Source: Micromonospora sp. NBC_01813
Lineage (GTDB): Bacteria > Actinomycetota > Actinomycetes > Mycobacteriales > Micromonosporaceae
DNA length: 64,000 nt
Direction of reading: 5' to 3'
Assembly: GCF_035917335.1 (NCBI RefSeq)
Contig: NZ_CP109067.1
Span: forward strand, 746,501 to 810,500
Part shown: positions 27,656-36,047 of the stretch, in pieces
How positions within the stretch are numbered: position 1 is the stretch's first letter
How the letters are laid out: each line of letters opens with the position of its first letter
The notes under the pieces: model-generated
What the model saw: the letters and a program-made list of their open reading frames with translations, nothing else
The model's database searches: none
What the model was told of the DNA's origin: nothing
Made by a program: the position numbers and the translations under genes

Positions 27656-28024
27656 ATGGACCAGGAGGCCCTCGCGGCGGCACTGCGTGACTTCGTCGAC
27701 CGGATCGCACTGTTCGACCCGGCTCCGCCGATCCCCGCCCCGCCGACCGACACCCAGCCGCCGATCGGTCAGCCGGCAACCGGGCGGCCGGCGGCGCCGA
27801 TCGAGATCCGCGTCGGCGGCGCCGATCCCGTGCAGTTGACCGCAACGGCGGCCGAGGCGTTGGGCGTCGCGCTGCGGTCCTACCACGATCCGCGTGACCG
27901 GGGCCGCTGCGACCAGTGCGGTGGCCGGCGCCTCGACGAAGCACTGCAGTGCCTCGACTGCGGCCAGCCGGGCGGGCTCTTCGGCCAACTGGTCCGAGAG
28001 CGGATGACCCGCTATCAGGAATGA
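27656..28024 (+). CDS. Small zinc-ribbon protein
   Basis: 122 aa, function unknown. N-terminal helix (residues 1-20), a Pro-rich linker (~25-45, PPIPAPPTDTQPPIGQP), a short beta region, and a C-terminal zinc ribbon with C-x2-C (CDQCGGRRLDEA) and C-x2-C (LQCLDCGQPG) at ~80-105. The start 13 bp after the exporter stop suggests shared expression, but a TACGCT box gives it a possible leaderless promoter. Its last codons overlap the tail of a mug-like pseudogene on the other strand. Confidence 0.7.
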   Translation: MDQEALAAALRDFVDRIALFDPAPPIPAPPTDTQPPIGQPATGRPAAPIEIRVGGADPVQLTATAAEALGVALRSYHDPRDRGRCDQCGGRRLDEALQCLDCGQPGGLFGQLVRERMTRYQE

Positions 28025-28292
28025 CTGGCGAGCCGCAAGGTGCCGAACTCGGCTGCCAGACCGCCGAGCTGATAGTGCGCGTTCAGACCGCTCGGGTTCG
28101 GCAGCACCCACACCCGGGCACCGGCGATCTTCTCGTCCTGCCGGCCGATCGCCGCCCGTGGGCGGCCGAACCCGGTCCGGTACGCGGTCACCCCGACCAC
28201 CGCCACCCAACCCGGCCGTGCTCAACTCGGCCGCGCGGGCGGCGGCCCGGGCCACCAGATTGGTCAGCCCGAGCCCGAGACCGGGCAGCAGC
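28015..28292 (-). pseudogene. Remnant of a mismatch-specific (Mug/TDG-type) uracil-DNA glycosylase
   Basis: The C-terminal part is intact in frame (VAVVGVTAYRTGFGRP, then WVLPNPSGLNAHYQLGGL), which are characteristic Mug motifs. Just upstream, in another frame, LGLGLTNLVARAAARAAELS matches the preceding conserved segment. About 25 residues that normally separate the two blocks are missing and the frames do not join. The N-terminal half, with the catalytic GINPG-type motif, is absent; the SDR gene ends where it should be. So the gene is truncated, internally deleted and frameshifted. Confidence 0.72.
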
Positions 28293-28317
28293 CGCCCCGC
28301 CCCGCCAGCCGCGATCG

Positions 28318-29079
28318 TCACGGATACGGCAGCGCGCCGCCGTCGACCGGGATGGTCAGTCCGGTCAGGTAGCTCGCGGCCGGGGAGAGTACGAACGCCG
28401 CGACGCGGCCGAACTCGGCCGGCTCACCGAGCCGGCCGAGCGGAATCGCCGCCTCCGCGTCGGCACGCGCCCGCTGCGGGTCGGCCGCCGTGGCGAACAA
28501 CTCGACGTTACGGTCGGTCATGATCCGACCCGGCAGCAGACTGACCAGCCGGACGCCCTGCCGGGCGTAGCCATCGGCGAACTCCTTGACGACGGCTGCC
28601 AGACCCGGCCGGAATCCGTTGGAGACGCCGAGGCCGGGCAGCGGCATCCGGGCCGAGGTGGACAGCACCACCGCGACCGCGCTGCCAGCCGGGGCCGCGT
28701 CGGCGAAGGTGCGCACCGCGCGTACCGTGCCGAGGAAGACCGTTTCGAACGCGTCGCGCCACTGCTGGTCGTCGACCGCTGTCGCGGCGGCCGGTCGCGG
28801 TCCGCCTACCGACACCAGGGCGCCGTCGAAGCGGCCGAACCGGTCGGTCGCCGCAGCGACGAGCCGCTCGGCCGTGTCCGGCGCGGCGAGATCGGCGGGC
28901 ACCGCGACCGCGTGGTCCGGGCCGCCGAGCCGCTCGACGGCTGCCGCGAGCCCGGCGGCGTCGCGGGCGGCGAGCACCACCCGGGCACCGTCGGCCACCA
29001 GACAGGCCGCGGTGGCGAAGCCGAGCCCCCGCGACGCGCCGGTCAACACGTACACCTGGTCGGTGAGGCCGAGATCCAT
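28318..29079 (-). CDS. SDR-family oxidoreductase (last gene of the DUF692 operon)
   Basis: Short-chain dehydrogenase/reductase, 253 aa from ATG 29079. NAD(P)-binding TGASRGLGFA (~13-22); a Ser in the catalytic region VVLSTSARMPLPG (~135-147) but the usual Y-x3-K reads GFRPGLAAVVKEFA, with Phe in the Tyr position and Lys kept; C-terminal PVDGG. The NNAG motif is also replaced (VSVGGPRP). So it is an atypical, perhaps catalytically altered SDR. It begins 29 bp after the stop of the 169-aa gene and may be co-transcribed with the membrane protein and DUF692 genes. Substrate unknown. Confidence 0.8.
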   Translation of the reverse strand: MDLGLTDQVYVLTGASRGLGFATAACLVADGARVVLAARDAAGLAAAVERLGGPDHAVAVPADLAAPDTAERLVAAATDRFGRFDGALVSVGGPRPAAATAVDDQQWRDAFETVFLGTVRAVRTFADAAPAGSAVAVVLSTSARMPLPGLGVSNGFRPGLAAVVKEFADGYARQGVRLVSLLPGRIMTDRNVELFATAADPQRARADAEAAIPLGRLGEPAEFGRVAAFVLSPAASYLTGLTIPVDGGALPYP

Positions 29080-29108
29080 GCTGGCGATCCTGCTACACCG
29101 CTCGCCGA

Positions 29109-29618
29109 TCAGGTCTGCCGGGTGCCGATCAGCCGTACCCGGCCGGCGATCTGGACGATCAGACCCGCCGGGGTACGTCGCAGCGCCGGCCACCAGCGTC
29201 GGCGTGGACCGGACCGGCCGTCGTAGCGCCAGCGTGCCTCCCGTTCGGCCAACTCCCGCGCGGCGAGGGCCGGCAGTTCGGATGCTTCGCTCCACTCGCG
29301 GACGAAGTCCCAGCCGTCGCGCAGGCCACCCGTCGACGGTCGGCCGGCCGCCCAATCGACGAAGTCGTCCGGCCATCGGCCCGCCAACGAGTGGGCCAGC
29401 ATCGGCCAGTGTCTTGCCGTCTCGCCCGCGCGTTTGCGTAGCAGCGCGGTGCGTGCCGCCGACAGCCGCCGGTGGTCGAATCCGACGGGATCCGGGGCGT
29501 CGGTCACCAGCGCCGTGATCAGCGCGTGCTGGGCGGCCGCCAACCGGGCACGTTCGGGCTGCTGGTCGCCGTCGGACCGCGACGGTCGGCCGGCCGCACC
29601 GGGACCCGACGCCGTCAC
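29109..29618 (-). CDS. Hypothetical protein coupled to DUF692 (possible MNIO partner)
   Basis: 169 aa, no confident family. It starts with GTG 29618 overlapping the DUF692 stop (GTGA), so it is translationally coupled. Mostly helical and charged: ERARLAAAQHALITALV (~22-38), then LSAARTALLRKRAGETARHW and WPMLAHSLAGRWPDDFVDWA (~52-90), ending in a basic segment. Known MNIO enzymes usually need a small partner protein (MbnC, TglI, BufC) that is encoded next to them and has a helical N-terminal domain. Size, coupling and the helical pattern fit such a partner; this is inference, and it may instead be unrelated. Confidence 0.6.
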   Translation of the reverse strand: MTASGPGAAGRPSRSDGDQQPERARLAAAQHALITALVTDAPDPVGFDHRRLSAARTALLRKRAGETARHWPMLAHSLAGRWPDDFVDWAAGRPSTGGLRDGWDFVREWSEASELPALAARELAEREARWRYDGRSGPRRRWWPALRRTPAGLIVQIAGRVRLIGTRQT

Positions 29619-30442
29619 GTGATCGGTGCCATGCCGGTCGCCAGCGCGATCGCGTCCAGCTCCGCGTGGAGCACCGCAGCCGGTGGGTACCGGCCGTCGC
29701 GTTCCAGCAGCACCGCCGGTGGTCGCCGCCGCGAGCACAGCTGGGTGAGTAGTTCCAGCACCGGCGGCGTGACGGCGTCGGTGTGGGTGTCGTGATAGAG
29801 CCCGTCGTGTTCGGCCCCGCCCGCGACGTGCACGTAGGCGACCCGCTCCAGGGGCATCCGGTCCAGCACCACGGCCGGATCGTCGCCCCGGTTACGGGCG
29901 TTGGCGTACACGTTGGCGACGTCGAGCAGCAGCAGCGCGTCGCAGCGTTCGAGGATCTCGGTGACGAAGTCGGCTTCGTCGAACTCGTCGTCCGGCCAGT
30001 CGAACAACGCCGCGATCGGCTCCAGCGCGATCGGCACCGGCAGCTGCGTCTGGGCGCGGACCACGTTGGCCACCACCGCGTCGACCGCGGCCCGGCTGCG
30101 CGGCACCGGCAGCAGATGCCCGGCCTCGACCCCGCCGGCGCGGACGAACGCGATGTGCTCGCTCACCAGCGGCGCGTCGAGCAGCCGCGCGGTCGCGGCC
30201 AGCCGGGTCACCCGAGCGTCGTCGACCGGCTCAGCGCCGCCGAGGGAGAGCCGCACCCCGTGCGGGACGACGGTCACCCCACGCGCGCGCAGCGCGTGCA
30301 GTTGCGGGTCGAGCGGGCGGTCCGGATCGACCGACTCGGCGATCACCTCGGTGAAACGCAGCCCGGGCAGCCCAGCGACGAGCCCGGCGATCTCCGGTCG
30401 CCAGCCGAGGCCGACCCCGTACCCGTCGGTCAACCGCCGCAC
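29615..30442 (-). CDS. DUF692 multinuclear non-heme iron oxidative enzyme (MNIO)
   Basis: 275 aa TIM-barrel protein of the DUF692 family (MbnB, TglH, ChrH, BufB), iron enzymes that oxidatively modify cysteines in peptides. The expected metal-ligand series is visible in order: His in VPHGVRLSL (~58-66), His in SEHIAFV (~94), Glu in ALEPIA (~140), Asp and Asn in LLLDVANVYANARN (~170-183), His in YVHVAGG (~202), then HDTHTDAV (~214-221), and a late Glu in LLERDG (~247). The GTG start at 30442 lies inside the upstream membrane-protein gene (13-bp overlap). That gene encodes a Gly-rich tail with two cysteines, a plausible substrate. Family call firm; substrate is inference. Confidence 0.85.
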   Translation of the reverse strand: MRRLTDGYGVGLGWRPEIAGLVAGLPGLRFTEVIAESVDPDRPLDPQLHALRARGVTVVPHGVRLSLGGAEPVDDARVTRLAATARLLDAPLVSEHIAFVRAGGVEAGHLLPVPRSRAAVDAVVANVVRAQTQLPVPIALEPIAALFDWPDDEFDEADFVTEILERCDALLLLDVANVYANARNRGDDPAVVLDRMPLERVAYVHVAGGAEHDGLYHDTHTDAVTPPVLELLTQLCSRRRPPAVLLERDGRYPPAAVLHAELDAIALATGMAPIT

Positions 30443-31317
30443 CCGCCACCCCCGCAGCCACCGCCACCACCGTCACCGCCACCGCCACTGCCGCCACTGT
30501 CGCCCGCTGCCCCGCCGCCGCTACCGTTCGCGGCGACGCGCTGGATCGAGGCGGCCTCGGCGAAGTCCGGGTCCATGGTCCACAGTGCGGCCGAACCGAA
30601 CAGCGCCACTCCCATCACCGCGCCGGTCATGCCGTACGTGGCGTACGCGGGTCGGCTGCTGGGCGACAGGTGCCGATGGCTGCGTCGCAGCTCGCCCAGC
30701 GCCCGTCGGCCGGAGCGGGTCACCCGGGGCACGGCGATGGTGAGCAGCAACCCGACGGGGACCGTCAAGGCCAGCAACAGCACCAGGTAGCCGACCGGCC
30801 GACCGTTGGCCAGACCCGCGATCAGCCGCAGTACGCCGACCCCCGCGAGCCCCAGCAGCGCGGCACCCAGCCAGCGCGCGGTGACCCGCCGCGCCCGGGA
30901 TGCGGCCAGCCCGGCGTGCTCGAGATGGTCCTGTAGCCGGTCGAGGCTCTGCCGGATCCGGGGATCGGCGGCCAGATCACGGACCCGGCGCTGCTGGTAC
31001 GCGGCGTAGTGGACAGCTGCGGTGAGCTCGTCGGCGCCGGCCGGCAGCGGGCCTGACGCGCGTAGCGCCCGGCCGCCGCCGACGTCGATCACGCCAGCGC
31101 CGCGTAGCCCGCCGAGCGCCGCGTTGATCGCCAGCGGCGCGCCGCCGGTGAGGTGGGCGACCTGGGTGCCGGTGAGGTCGCCCGGTCGAGGGTCACGGTT
31201 GCCGGCGAACATCGTCAGGCGGTAGCCGATGCTGATGATCAGCAGCCCCAGTGCCGCGATCCCGTAGAGAGCCAGAAAGGTGGGGCCGGGGATGCCCCAG
31301 GTGTCGCCGGATGTCAT
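30430..31317 (-). CDS. TIGR04222-like membrane protein with Gly/Cys C-terminal tail
   Basis: 295 aa. Hydrophobic segments at ~13-36, ~148-168, ~175-196 and ~226-246 give four predicted membrane helices. The soluble loop (~40-145, GDLTGTQVAHLTGGAPLAIN ... YQQRRVRDLAADPRIRQSL) matches the TIGR04222 type that precedes low-complexity tails. The tail (~260-295) is almost only Gly and ends GGGGGCGGGGCGG. I see no other cysteine in the protein, so Cys288 and Cys293 are the only two. ATG 31317 has GGAGG upstream. First gene of the operon, overlapping DUF692 by 13 bp. Likely the substrate of that enzyme; function unknown. Confidence 0.8.
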   Translation of the reverse strand: MTSGDTWGIPGPTFLALYGIAALGLLIISIGYRLTMFAGNRDPRPGDLTGTQVAHLTGGAPLAINAALGGLRGAGVIDVGGGRALRASGPLPAGADELTAAVHYAAYQQRRVRDLAADPRIRQSLDRLQDHLEHAGLAASRARRVTARWLGAALLGLAGVGVLRLIAGLANGRPVGYLVLLLALTVPVGLLLTIAVPRVTRSGRRALGELRRSHRHLSPSSRPAYATYGMTGAVMGVALFGSAALWTMDPDFAEAASIQRVAANGSGGGAAGDSGGSGGGGDGGGGGCGGGGCGG

Positions 31318-31368
31318 CGCGCCTCCAGATGGCGGTGCTGCTGCGGTGCGGCCCTATTGTGGGGCAGC

Positions 31369-31441
31369 CACGCCAGCGGGCCGGCATGGGTGCCGGGTCA
31401 CGTCAGCGGGCTCACCGGGTGCCCGGGTCACGTCAGCGGGC
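31369..31441 (+). repeat. Direct repeats upstream of the DUF692 operon
   Basis: CCGGGTCACGTCAGCGGGC is present at 31393-31411 and again at 31423-31441, exactly 30 bp apart. A weaker copy of its second half (CACGCCAGCGGGC) lies at 31369-31381. The repeats are 52-124 bp upstream of the membrane-protein start and just behind the 3' end of the TetR gene, in position for an activator on one face of the DNA. Confidence 0.6.
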
Positions 31442-31458: not shown

Positions 31459-32037
31459 TCAGGCTGGCGGGCGGCGTACCGCCTCTTCGACCAGGTCGAG
31501 AACGGCGCCGAGGTCCCCGGCGGGCCGGCCCATCGCCAGGTGCAGCACCAGACCGTCGTAGGCCAACTCCAGGAACCGGGCGAGGACGTCGATCGGTACG
31601 TCGTCGCGGAGCACCCCGGCGTCGCGTTGCCGGCGCAGTCTGCCCCGGGTGGCCTCGGCGATCGCGGCGGAGCGGGCCGCCCAACGGCGGGCGAAGTCGG
31701 GGTCGGTGCGCAGCCGACGGGAGACTTCGAGTTGGCTGCCGAGCCAGCCGGCGGTGTCCGGCGCGGCGGCCCGGGTGAGTAGATCGCGCATGACCTGGAC
31801 CAGGCCGTTGCGGGCGACGGTCTCGACCATGGCGGCGGCGTCGTCCTCGGCCACGGCCAGGAACAACGAGTCCTTGTCCCGGAAATGGTGGAAGATCGCG
31901 CCACGGGACAGCCCGGTGGCCTCCTCCAACCGCCGCACGGTGGCGCCCTCGTATCCGTGCCGGGCGAAGCAGACCCGCGCCGCGGCGAGGATCTCCTGGC
32001 GGCGGGCGTCGAGCTGGACCTGACTGACCCGGGGCAT
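31459..32037 (-). CDS. TetR-family regulator, AcnR-like (probable aconitase regulator)
   Basis: 192 aa. N-terminal HTH at ~13-60: ILAAARVCFARHGYEGATVR then LEEATGLSRGAIFHHFRDKD, the standard TetR pattern. The ligand domain is all-helical. In mycobacteria and corynebacteria a TetR regulator is encoded next to aconitase, and the corynebacterial AcnR represses acn. Here only two small genes lie between it and acn. A perfect palindrome sits 37 bp before its start, and a 12-mer from this site recurs upstream of acn, supporting autoregulation plus acn control (inference). Confidence 0.82.
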   Translation of the reverse strand: MPRVSQVQLDARRQEILAAARVCFARHGYEGATVRRLEEATGLSRGAIFHHFRDKDSLFLAVAEDDAAAMVETVARNGLVQVMRDLLTRAAAPDTAGWLGSQLEVSRRLRTDPDFARRWAARSAAIAEATRGRLRRQRDAGVLRDDVPIDVLARFLELAYDGLVLHLAMGRPAGDLGAVLDLVEEAVRRPPA

Positions 32038-33131: not shown

Positions 33132-35927
<2,796 letters not shown>

Positions 35928-35972
35928 GTCGGACTCCTTACCGCTGTGTCCCTGATCGTCCTGGCAGTCTTT

Positions 35973-36047
35973 CGTACGGATTGCCGTCAGGTTCGGGTGA
36001 GGTGACACTTACCCGCGCTGCGGCCCGCAACCAAACCGTACGTCCGT
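35973..36047. promoter_or_regulatory. acn upstream region with TetR/AcnR-like sites
   Basis: In the 355-bp gap between acn and the divergent gene at 36283. CGTACGGATTGC at 35973-35984 is identical to the 12-mer at the TetR operator. CCGTACGTCCGT at 36036-36047 matches its palindrome in 10 of 12 bases. The two sites flank a possible acn promoter (TTGGTT, 17-bp spacer, TAAGTG on the minus strand). The rest of the gap has a plausible promoter for the plus-strand gene (TTGCGC 36222-36227, TACTCT 36244-36249) and no gene. Confidence 0.5.

Follow-up and report, generated by a model that had tools for sequence, protein, structure and literature searches.

A putative MNIO-dependent tail modification system around a Cys-tailed TIGR04222 membrane protein in Micromonospora

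A TIGR04222 protein, an MNIO enzyme and a likely partner

We analysed a candidate protein modification locus of Micromonospora sp. NBC_01813 in a window of 64,000 nucleotides (contig NZ_CP109067.1, positions 746,501 to 810,500), to which all coordinates below refer. Four minus-strand genes, tightly spaced or overlapping, lie here much as a first-pass annotation of the sequence had described them, with every open reading frame (ORF) recovered at its claimed coordinates. They encode a TIGR04222 membrane protein, an MNIO (DUF692) enzyme, a 169-residue protein and an SDR oxidoreductase. The last 13 nt of the TIGR04222 gene (30430..31317, minus strand) overlap the start of the MNIO gene, and a GTGA overlap joins the MNIO stop to the start of the gene for the 169-residue protein. 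The genome (7.63 Mb, a single contig) contains one TIGR04222 match and one MNIO match, both at this locus, and since the gene set is also kept in many other genomes we do not regard the arrangement as a product of chance.

The 295-residue membrane protein scored 154.9 bits against TIGR04222 (cut-off 43) and belongs to that family; hydropathy and an AlphaFold2 model agree with its placement in the membrane. Its C-terminal end, GGGGGCGGGGCGG, bears out the earlier description of a nearly pure Gly tail ending in two Cys: the Gly-rich stretch covers residues 263-295 (30433..30531, minus strand), carries Cys288 and Cys293, and is the proposed substrate. The MNIO enzyme encoded next (29615..30442, minus strand; 275 residues) scored 261.6 bits against PF05114, for which the gathering cut-off is 25, and its residues H61, H96, E141, D174, N177, N184, H205, D218, H220, E247 and D249 are the same in all 68 aligned MNIOs; the enzyme was also aligned to structures 8hci and 3bww. 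We take the invariant His, Asp, Glu and Asn residues to be the iron ligands, and the score and these residues together sustain the reading of a DUF692 enzyme with its metal-ligand series present. It fell below the cut-offs of the BufB model (178.3 bits, cut-off 310) and the MbnB model (26.9 bits, cut-off 325).

The 169-residue protein (29109..29618, minus strand) matched no Pfam family at E 0.1, and its only NCBIfam match was far below cut-off. Its family is present at 114 of 123 MNIO loci and at 99 of the 101 loci where MNIO adjoins TIGR04222, 32 of the latter having it in one ORF with the MNIO. The two misses among the 101 are a locus at a contig edge (L037) and one where a short relative is visible by eye (L136); seven MNIO loci had neither the partner nor TIGR04222. 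When the AlphaFold2 model of the protein (pLDDT 92.8, pTM 0.78) was compared with 350,542 PDB chains, the best match was MbnC, a weak one (E 0.19, probability 0.66); 3dee (NGO1945) and TglI were not among the best 50 of 59 fold matches, and a profile of the partner searched against PDB sequences gave a single match, NTF2-like, at E 0.14. A DUF2063 signature is absent from the window protein and weakly present in 6 of 66 family members (best E 0.0035), and the gene follows that of the MNIO, the combination by which PME-type 2 partners are recognised. Because of the fusions, the near-universal linkage to MNIO and the weak fold match to MbnC, taken together, an MNIO partner is the best reading of this protein from sequence and model. 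According to the parts of PMC13419390 drawn on here, HvfB requires HvfC and an artificial HvfB-HvfC fusion is active, so the natural MNIO-partner fusions should be ready reagents.

Tail cysteines and tail carriers across genomes

The central idea of the first-pass annotation is already in print, since Antoine et al. 2025 (PMC12452194), in the passages considered here, link TIGR04222 proteins with MNIO enzymes and propose the tail as substrate. In that account TIGR04222 proteins, mostly from Actinomycetota, frequently adjoin MNIO genes, have C-proximal Cys in Ser- and Gly-rich regions and are possible MNIO substrates; the examples displayed include a TIGR04222 protein of 300 residues and a partner of 158 residues, both from Micromonospora. 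The clusters described there and those studied here share the same membrane protein, the MNIO, a PME-type 2 partner and C-terminal Cys as the proposed target. They differ in topology, the tail being predicted to be cytosolic here and read as periplasmic there, and in the partner, which those passages place in at least 10% of clusters, with many clusters having no partner gene, and which we found in 99 of 101 loci; a partner thought to be missing from many clusters is thus nearly always present in the set examined. Beyond those passages we contribute natural controls, in the form of genomes without MNIO, a partner that is almost always present and frequently fused to the enzyme, tail carriers besides TIGR04222 and a predicted cytosolic placement of the tail, and on sequence grounds the published interpretation of the tail as substrate is strengthened.

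Within a family set of 61 genomes, MNIO was found in 40, TIGR04222 above cut-off in 41 and both in 40; the corresponding counts for a phylum set of 396 genomes were 30, 26 and 25. At class level, 94 new TIGR04222-positive genomes were collected. Of these, 80 went into the MNIO test, and 5 that scored below cut-off and 9 of a genus we call g9, which is probably Streptomyces, were left out; MNIO was found in 50 of the 80 and none was found in 30. Tails were compared in 200 fetched stretches plus the window, with 195 of 200 TIGR04222 matches scored (4 incomplete matches and 1 below 60 bits were dropped), and 3 more matches shorter than 120 residues were left out of the tree.

Two or more Cys in Gly/Ser context occurred in 96 of 100 Gly/Ser-rich tails next to MNIO, in 18 of 30 such TIGR04222 tails away from MNIO in MNIO-bearing genomes, and in 1 of 14 from genomes in which no MNIO was found; that single exception (L109) comes with an MNIO fragment at a contig edge. 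None of the 51 TIGR04222 proteins without a Gly/Ser-rich tail had such Cys. Over the last 40 residues, Cys per 100 fell from 10.0 in adjacent proteins to 5.5 in those elsewhere in MNIO genomes and 1.4 where no MNIO was found, while Gly content was 50% in MNIO-adjacent versus 51% in no-MNIO-genome tails. The tail Cys (n = 418) almost always precede Gly (357) or Ser (54), 411 of 418 together. In genome G608, where the only MNIO found has no partner, neither of the two TIGR04222 proteins has such tail Cys. A plain Fisher test gave p = 7e-13 for rows that are related by descent. The co-occurrence of Cys-tailed TIGR04222 proteins, DUF692 and the 169-residue family, which the first-pass annotation had offered as a check, is reflected in the tail counts (96 of 100) and the partner counts (99 of 101). 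Its view of the tail as a likely MNIO target is likewise supported, as Cys track the presence of MNIO and similar tails stand beside the enzyme on other carriers.

Such carriers were found at L192, L194, L195 (two ORFs), L196 and L201, loci from the first two sets in which an MNIO-partner pair has no TIGR04222 neighbour and a small Cys-tailed ORF lies between the pair. Each small ORF combines a single membrane helix with an Arg-rich stretch and a tail containing Cys, and in L192, L194 and L196 its start overlaps the MNIO stop as ATGA; L191, from the same genus as four of the single-helix loci, showed no small Cys-tailed carrier. When the L194 enzyme was used to scan named genomes, 47 loci emerged (L203-L249, partly repeating sampled genomes), 46 of them with the partner; at 36 of these 46 a TIGR04222 carrier bears at least two such Cys. 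The scan also gave six single-helix carriers of 60-119 residues in Frankia and Pseudofrankia (L203-L208, some genomes shared with earlier loci), a 147-residue single-helix carrier placed after the partner alongside a TIGR04222 gene in Embleya (L211), and a soluble-looking carrier of about 440 residues just before a fused MNIO-partner in Parafrankia colletiae (L213) and Frankia sp. EI5c (L243). In total, ten single-helix and two soluble-looking proteins other than TIGR04222 carry the tail. Seven carriers were scanned against family models (L192, L195, L207 and L243 were left out) and gave no NCBIfam match at E 1 and, from Pfam, only a weak sub-cut-off match in L208. Because a similar tail occurs on single-helix or soluble proteins at loci without TIGR04222, the tail looks portable. 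These single-helix carriers may overlap the 'adjamnio-V' proteins, very small proteins after MNIO described in PMC12452194, and we do not claim them as unpublished; in the collection of papers searched, none contained both of the words MNIO and Frankia.

A proposed mechanism and its alternatives

We propose that the first three genes work together to modify a protein tail, with the MNIO and its partner oxidising Cys of that tail on the cytosolic side, a reading that we consider probable, if by no means secure. We infer the tail modification, its cytosolic side, its chemistry, its metal and its role along the following lines. The 169-residue partner would bind the carrier and help to activate the MNIO iron site, as HvfC does for HvfB, and the MNIO would oxidise Cys preceding Gly or Ser in the TIGR04222 tail, here Cys288 and Cys293. 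The tail would stay in the cytosol, on the enzyme's side of the membrane, anchored by three membrane helices whose N-terminal end points outward. If the best-studied relatives are a guide, the product may be a 5-thiooxazole binding a soft metal such as copper; EGKCG peptides, as described in the relevant parts of PMC13097082, lose 4 Da for each Cys converted to 5-thiooxazole, and they bind copper. The outcome would be a membrane-tethered intracellular metal buffer or relay. A wider version, to which we give an even chance, is that a portable, cytosol-facing Gly/Ser/Cys module at the C-terminus is modified by one kind of MNIO-partner pair on at least three unrelated carriers, namely the three-helix TIGR04222 protein, tiny proteins with a single helix and a soluble protein, and acts as a membrane-tethered intracellular metal-binding device, not a secreted peptide.

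Like the bufferins and captophorins (Buf, Fon, Hvf), the system combines an MNIO with a partner, would act on Cys, often Cys-Gly, and has its presumed substrate gene next to the enzyme; unlike them, its substrate would be an integral membrane protein, its partner has no DUF2063 signature and its MNIO lies below the BufB cut-off. With methanobactin MbnBC it shares the MNIO family and the resemblance, weak as it is (E 0.19), of the partner to MbnC, the best PDB fold match; there the substrate is a small released peptide, whereas here it would be an anchored protein tail. According to the passages of PMC12452194 cited above, the products of the largest known MNIO families are exported peptides that bind copper. 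If the tail is both cytosolic and portable, related chemistry would work inside the cell on protein tails, and TIGR04222 would be just one of several anchors.

The published topology is the first of several points that weigh against this proposal. For Antoine et al. 2025 (PMC12452194) the tail is periplasmic, so that an MNIO-modified tail would then cross the membrane to become an exposed metal-binding tail, and in the same passages bufferins are exported once modified. A moderately hydrophobic segment at residues 225-247 of the window protein (peak hydropathy 1.44) also speaks for this reading. The 'four-helix' protein of the first-pass annotation is doubtful, however: hydropathy and AlphaFold2 (pLDDT 88.4) support three membrane-length helices at 11-36, 141-170 and 176-194, the likely membrane helices of the protein being placed at about 13-33, 147-169 and 173-196, while residues 225-255 appear as broken short helices and pLDDT is below 50 at tail residues 266-275 and 277-293. 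Helices 1-3 are clear in TIGR04222 relatives, whereas for segment 224-254, which AlphaFold2 splits into short helices, peak hydropathy has a median of only 1.22, and of 167 relatives 112 carry at least one charge in the core of the segment and 71 carry two or more; among MNIO-adjacent Cys-tailed proteins the segment is a less unlikely membrane helix (1.39, core charge in 47 of 91). In the window protein, the charges on either side of the helices agree with a three-helix topology that leaves the tail inside, and by eye no Lys or Arg precedes the first helix. Each of the ten single-helix carriers has 0-1 Lys/Arg on the N-terminal side of its helix and 4-7 on the C-terminal side, a pattern that looks N-out and C-in, and in the two large carriers no segment stands out as a membrane helix (peak hydropathy 1.39 and 1.26). 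Because of the charge patterns, the weak fourth segment and the single-helix and soluble carriers, the predictions favour, though not decisively, a cytosolic over an exposed tail, contrary to the published topology and to the surface tail of the first-pass annotation; we regard the exposed tail as a serious but rather unlikely alternative. The idea that genus-g9 TIGR04222 proteins lack the fourth helix was dropped, as the NCBIfam model aligns to 227/229 in L066 and the segment is present in charged form.

Also on the opposing side are loci that do not fit. The first-pass annotation would have taken a Cys tail not conserved next to DUF692 as a refutation, and this does occur: at 13 of the 101 loci with adjacent TIGR04222, no adjacent copy reaches two such Cys. 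Twelve of them belong to genus g9, all with a fused MNIO-partner, and the other is L157, with a Cys-less tail. At ten of these exceptions, from the first set, no tailed carrier was seen nearby and the enzymes keep their ligand-like residues; a deeper search of G123, G295, G335, G339 and G315 gave no second TIGR04222 match. At L091-L093 and at L210 (Actinomadura viridilutea), MNIO and partner were present and neither TIGR04222 nor a tailed carrier was found. At such loci either the enzyme has another target or the carrier is encoded at a different site. Of the 30 Gly/Ser-rich tails away from MNIO in MNIO genomes, 12 hold fewer than two Cys, and no metal-regulator site was recognised by eye upstream of the aligned loci. 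The 12 genus-g9 loci, L157 and the carrier-less L210 and L091-L093 are what would be expected if MNIO and partner modified another protein and the Cys tail were an unmodified metal-binding or redox tail of the same pathway. Against this stand the counts of tails with two or more Cys, 96 of 100 next to MNIO but 1 of 14 where no MNIO was found, and the replacement of TIGR04222 by other similarly tailed proteins directly beside the enzyme, and we think another substrate improbable. Small Cys-rich ORFs were considered as substitute substrates at 13 genus-g9 loci and rejected, the conserved ones being unconvincing: a 59-residue protein about 3 kb away, which we take to be zinc-ribbon-like, and apparent out-of-frame shadows.

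A further alternative, which we consider very improbable, is that the Cys of the tail were not selected for modification and simply reflect low-complexity drift, common descent or the overlap with the MNIO start. Two observations speak for it and also count against our own proposal: the last Cys codon overlaps the MNIO start, so that residue may be constrained by the overlap, and a tree-aware independent-pairs test was not significant, its 2-6 supported pairs being too few for power. On the other side, equally Gly-rich tails in genomes without MNIO are almost free of Cys, 18 Cys-tailed TIGR04222 proteins lie away from any MNIO, and similar tails occur on other carriers.

Further features of the TIGR04222 protein and neighbouring genes

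In the TIGR04222 model, the loop joining helices 1 and 2 contains, at residues 50-87, two helices followed by two strands, an order reminiscent of one half of a winged helix of the kind seen in RRE domains; a fold search with the model against PDB gave no match, the best E being only 1.5. The window protein has a weak DUF2207_C match (E 0.012), so TIGR04222 may be a distant DUF2207 relative, and weak TIGR04222 matches in long ORFs across the phylum are possibly DUF2207-type proteins.

Upstream of the operon lie genes for a TetR regulator (31459-32037, minus strand) and an aconitase-like protein (33132-36008, minus strand), presumably an acn-acnR pair; within the family set, 32 MNIO loci have a closely related TetR. 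The only promoter-like element found in an upstream alignment of 17 loci was CACAATG, present upstream of TIGR04222 in most of them (CACAATA in the window, at about 31318-31380, minus strand), and because it lies very near the start codon in some loci it suggests near-leaderless transcripts. Frankia-type MNIO-partner pairs in L191-L196 and L157 lie near what we take to be pheT-like and argC-like genes, and L136 lies near a presumed mshC-like gene.

The SDR oxidoreductase gene (28318..29079, minus strand; adh_short_C2, 130.6 bits) is a neighbour outside the core of the system: it lies downstream on the same strand in 18 of 41 family loci, and was rejected as a core enzyme on that count. At L097, MNIO, partner and SDR follow a TetR gene, with no TIGR04222 gene found before the MNIO; this genome (G449) has a second MNIO locus, L055, with a Cys-tailed TIGR04222 protein. 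Directly after the SDR gene in the window, at 28021-28320 (minus strand), split frames spell uracil-DNA glycosylase-like pieces, which we take to be of the Mug/TDG type and which look like a decayed gene; at L097, an ORF with a similar glycosylase-like motif follows the SDR.

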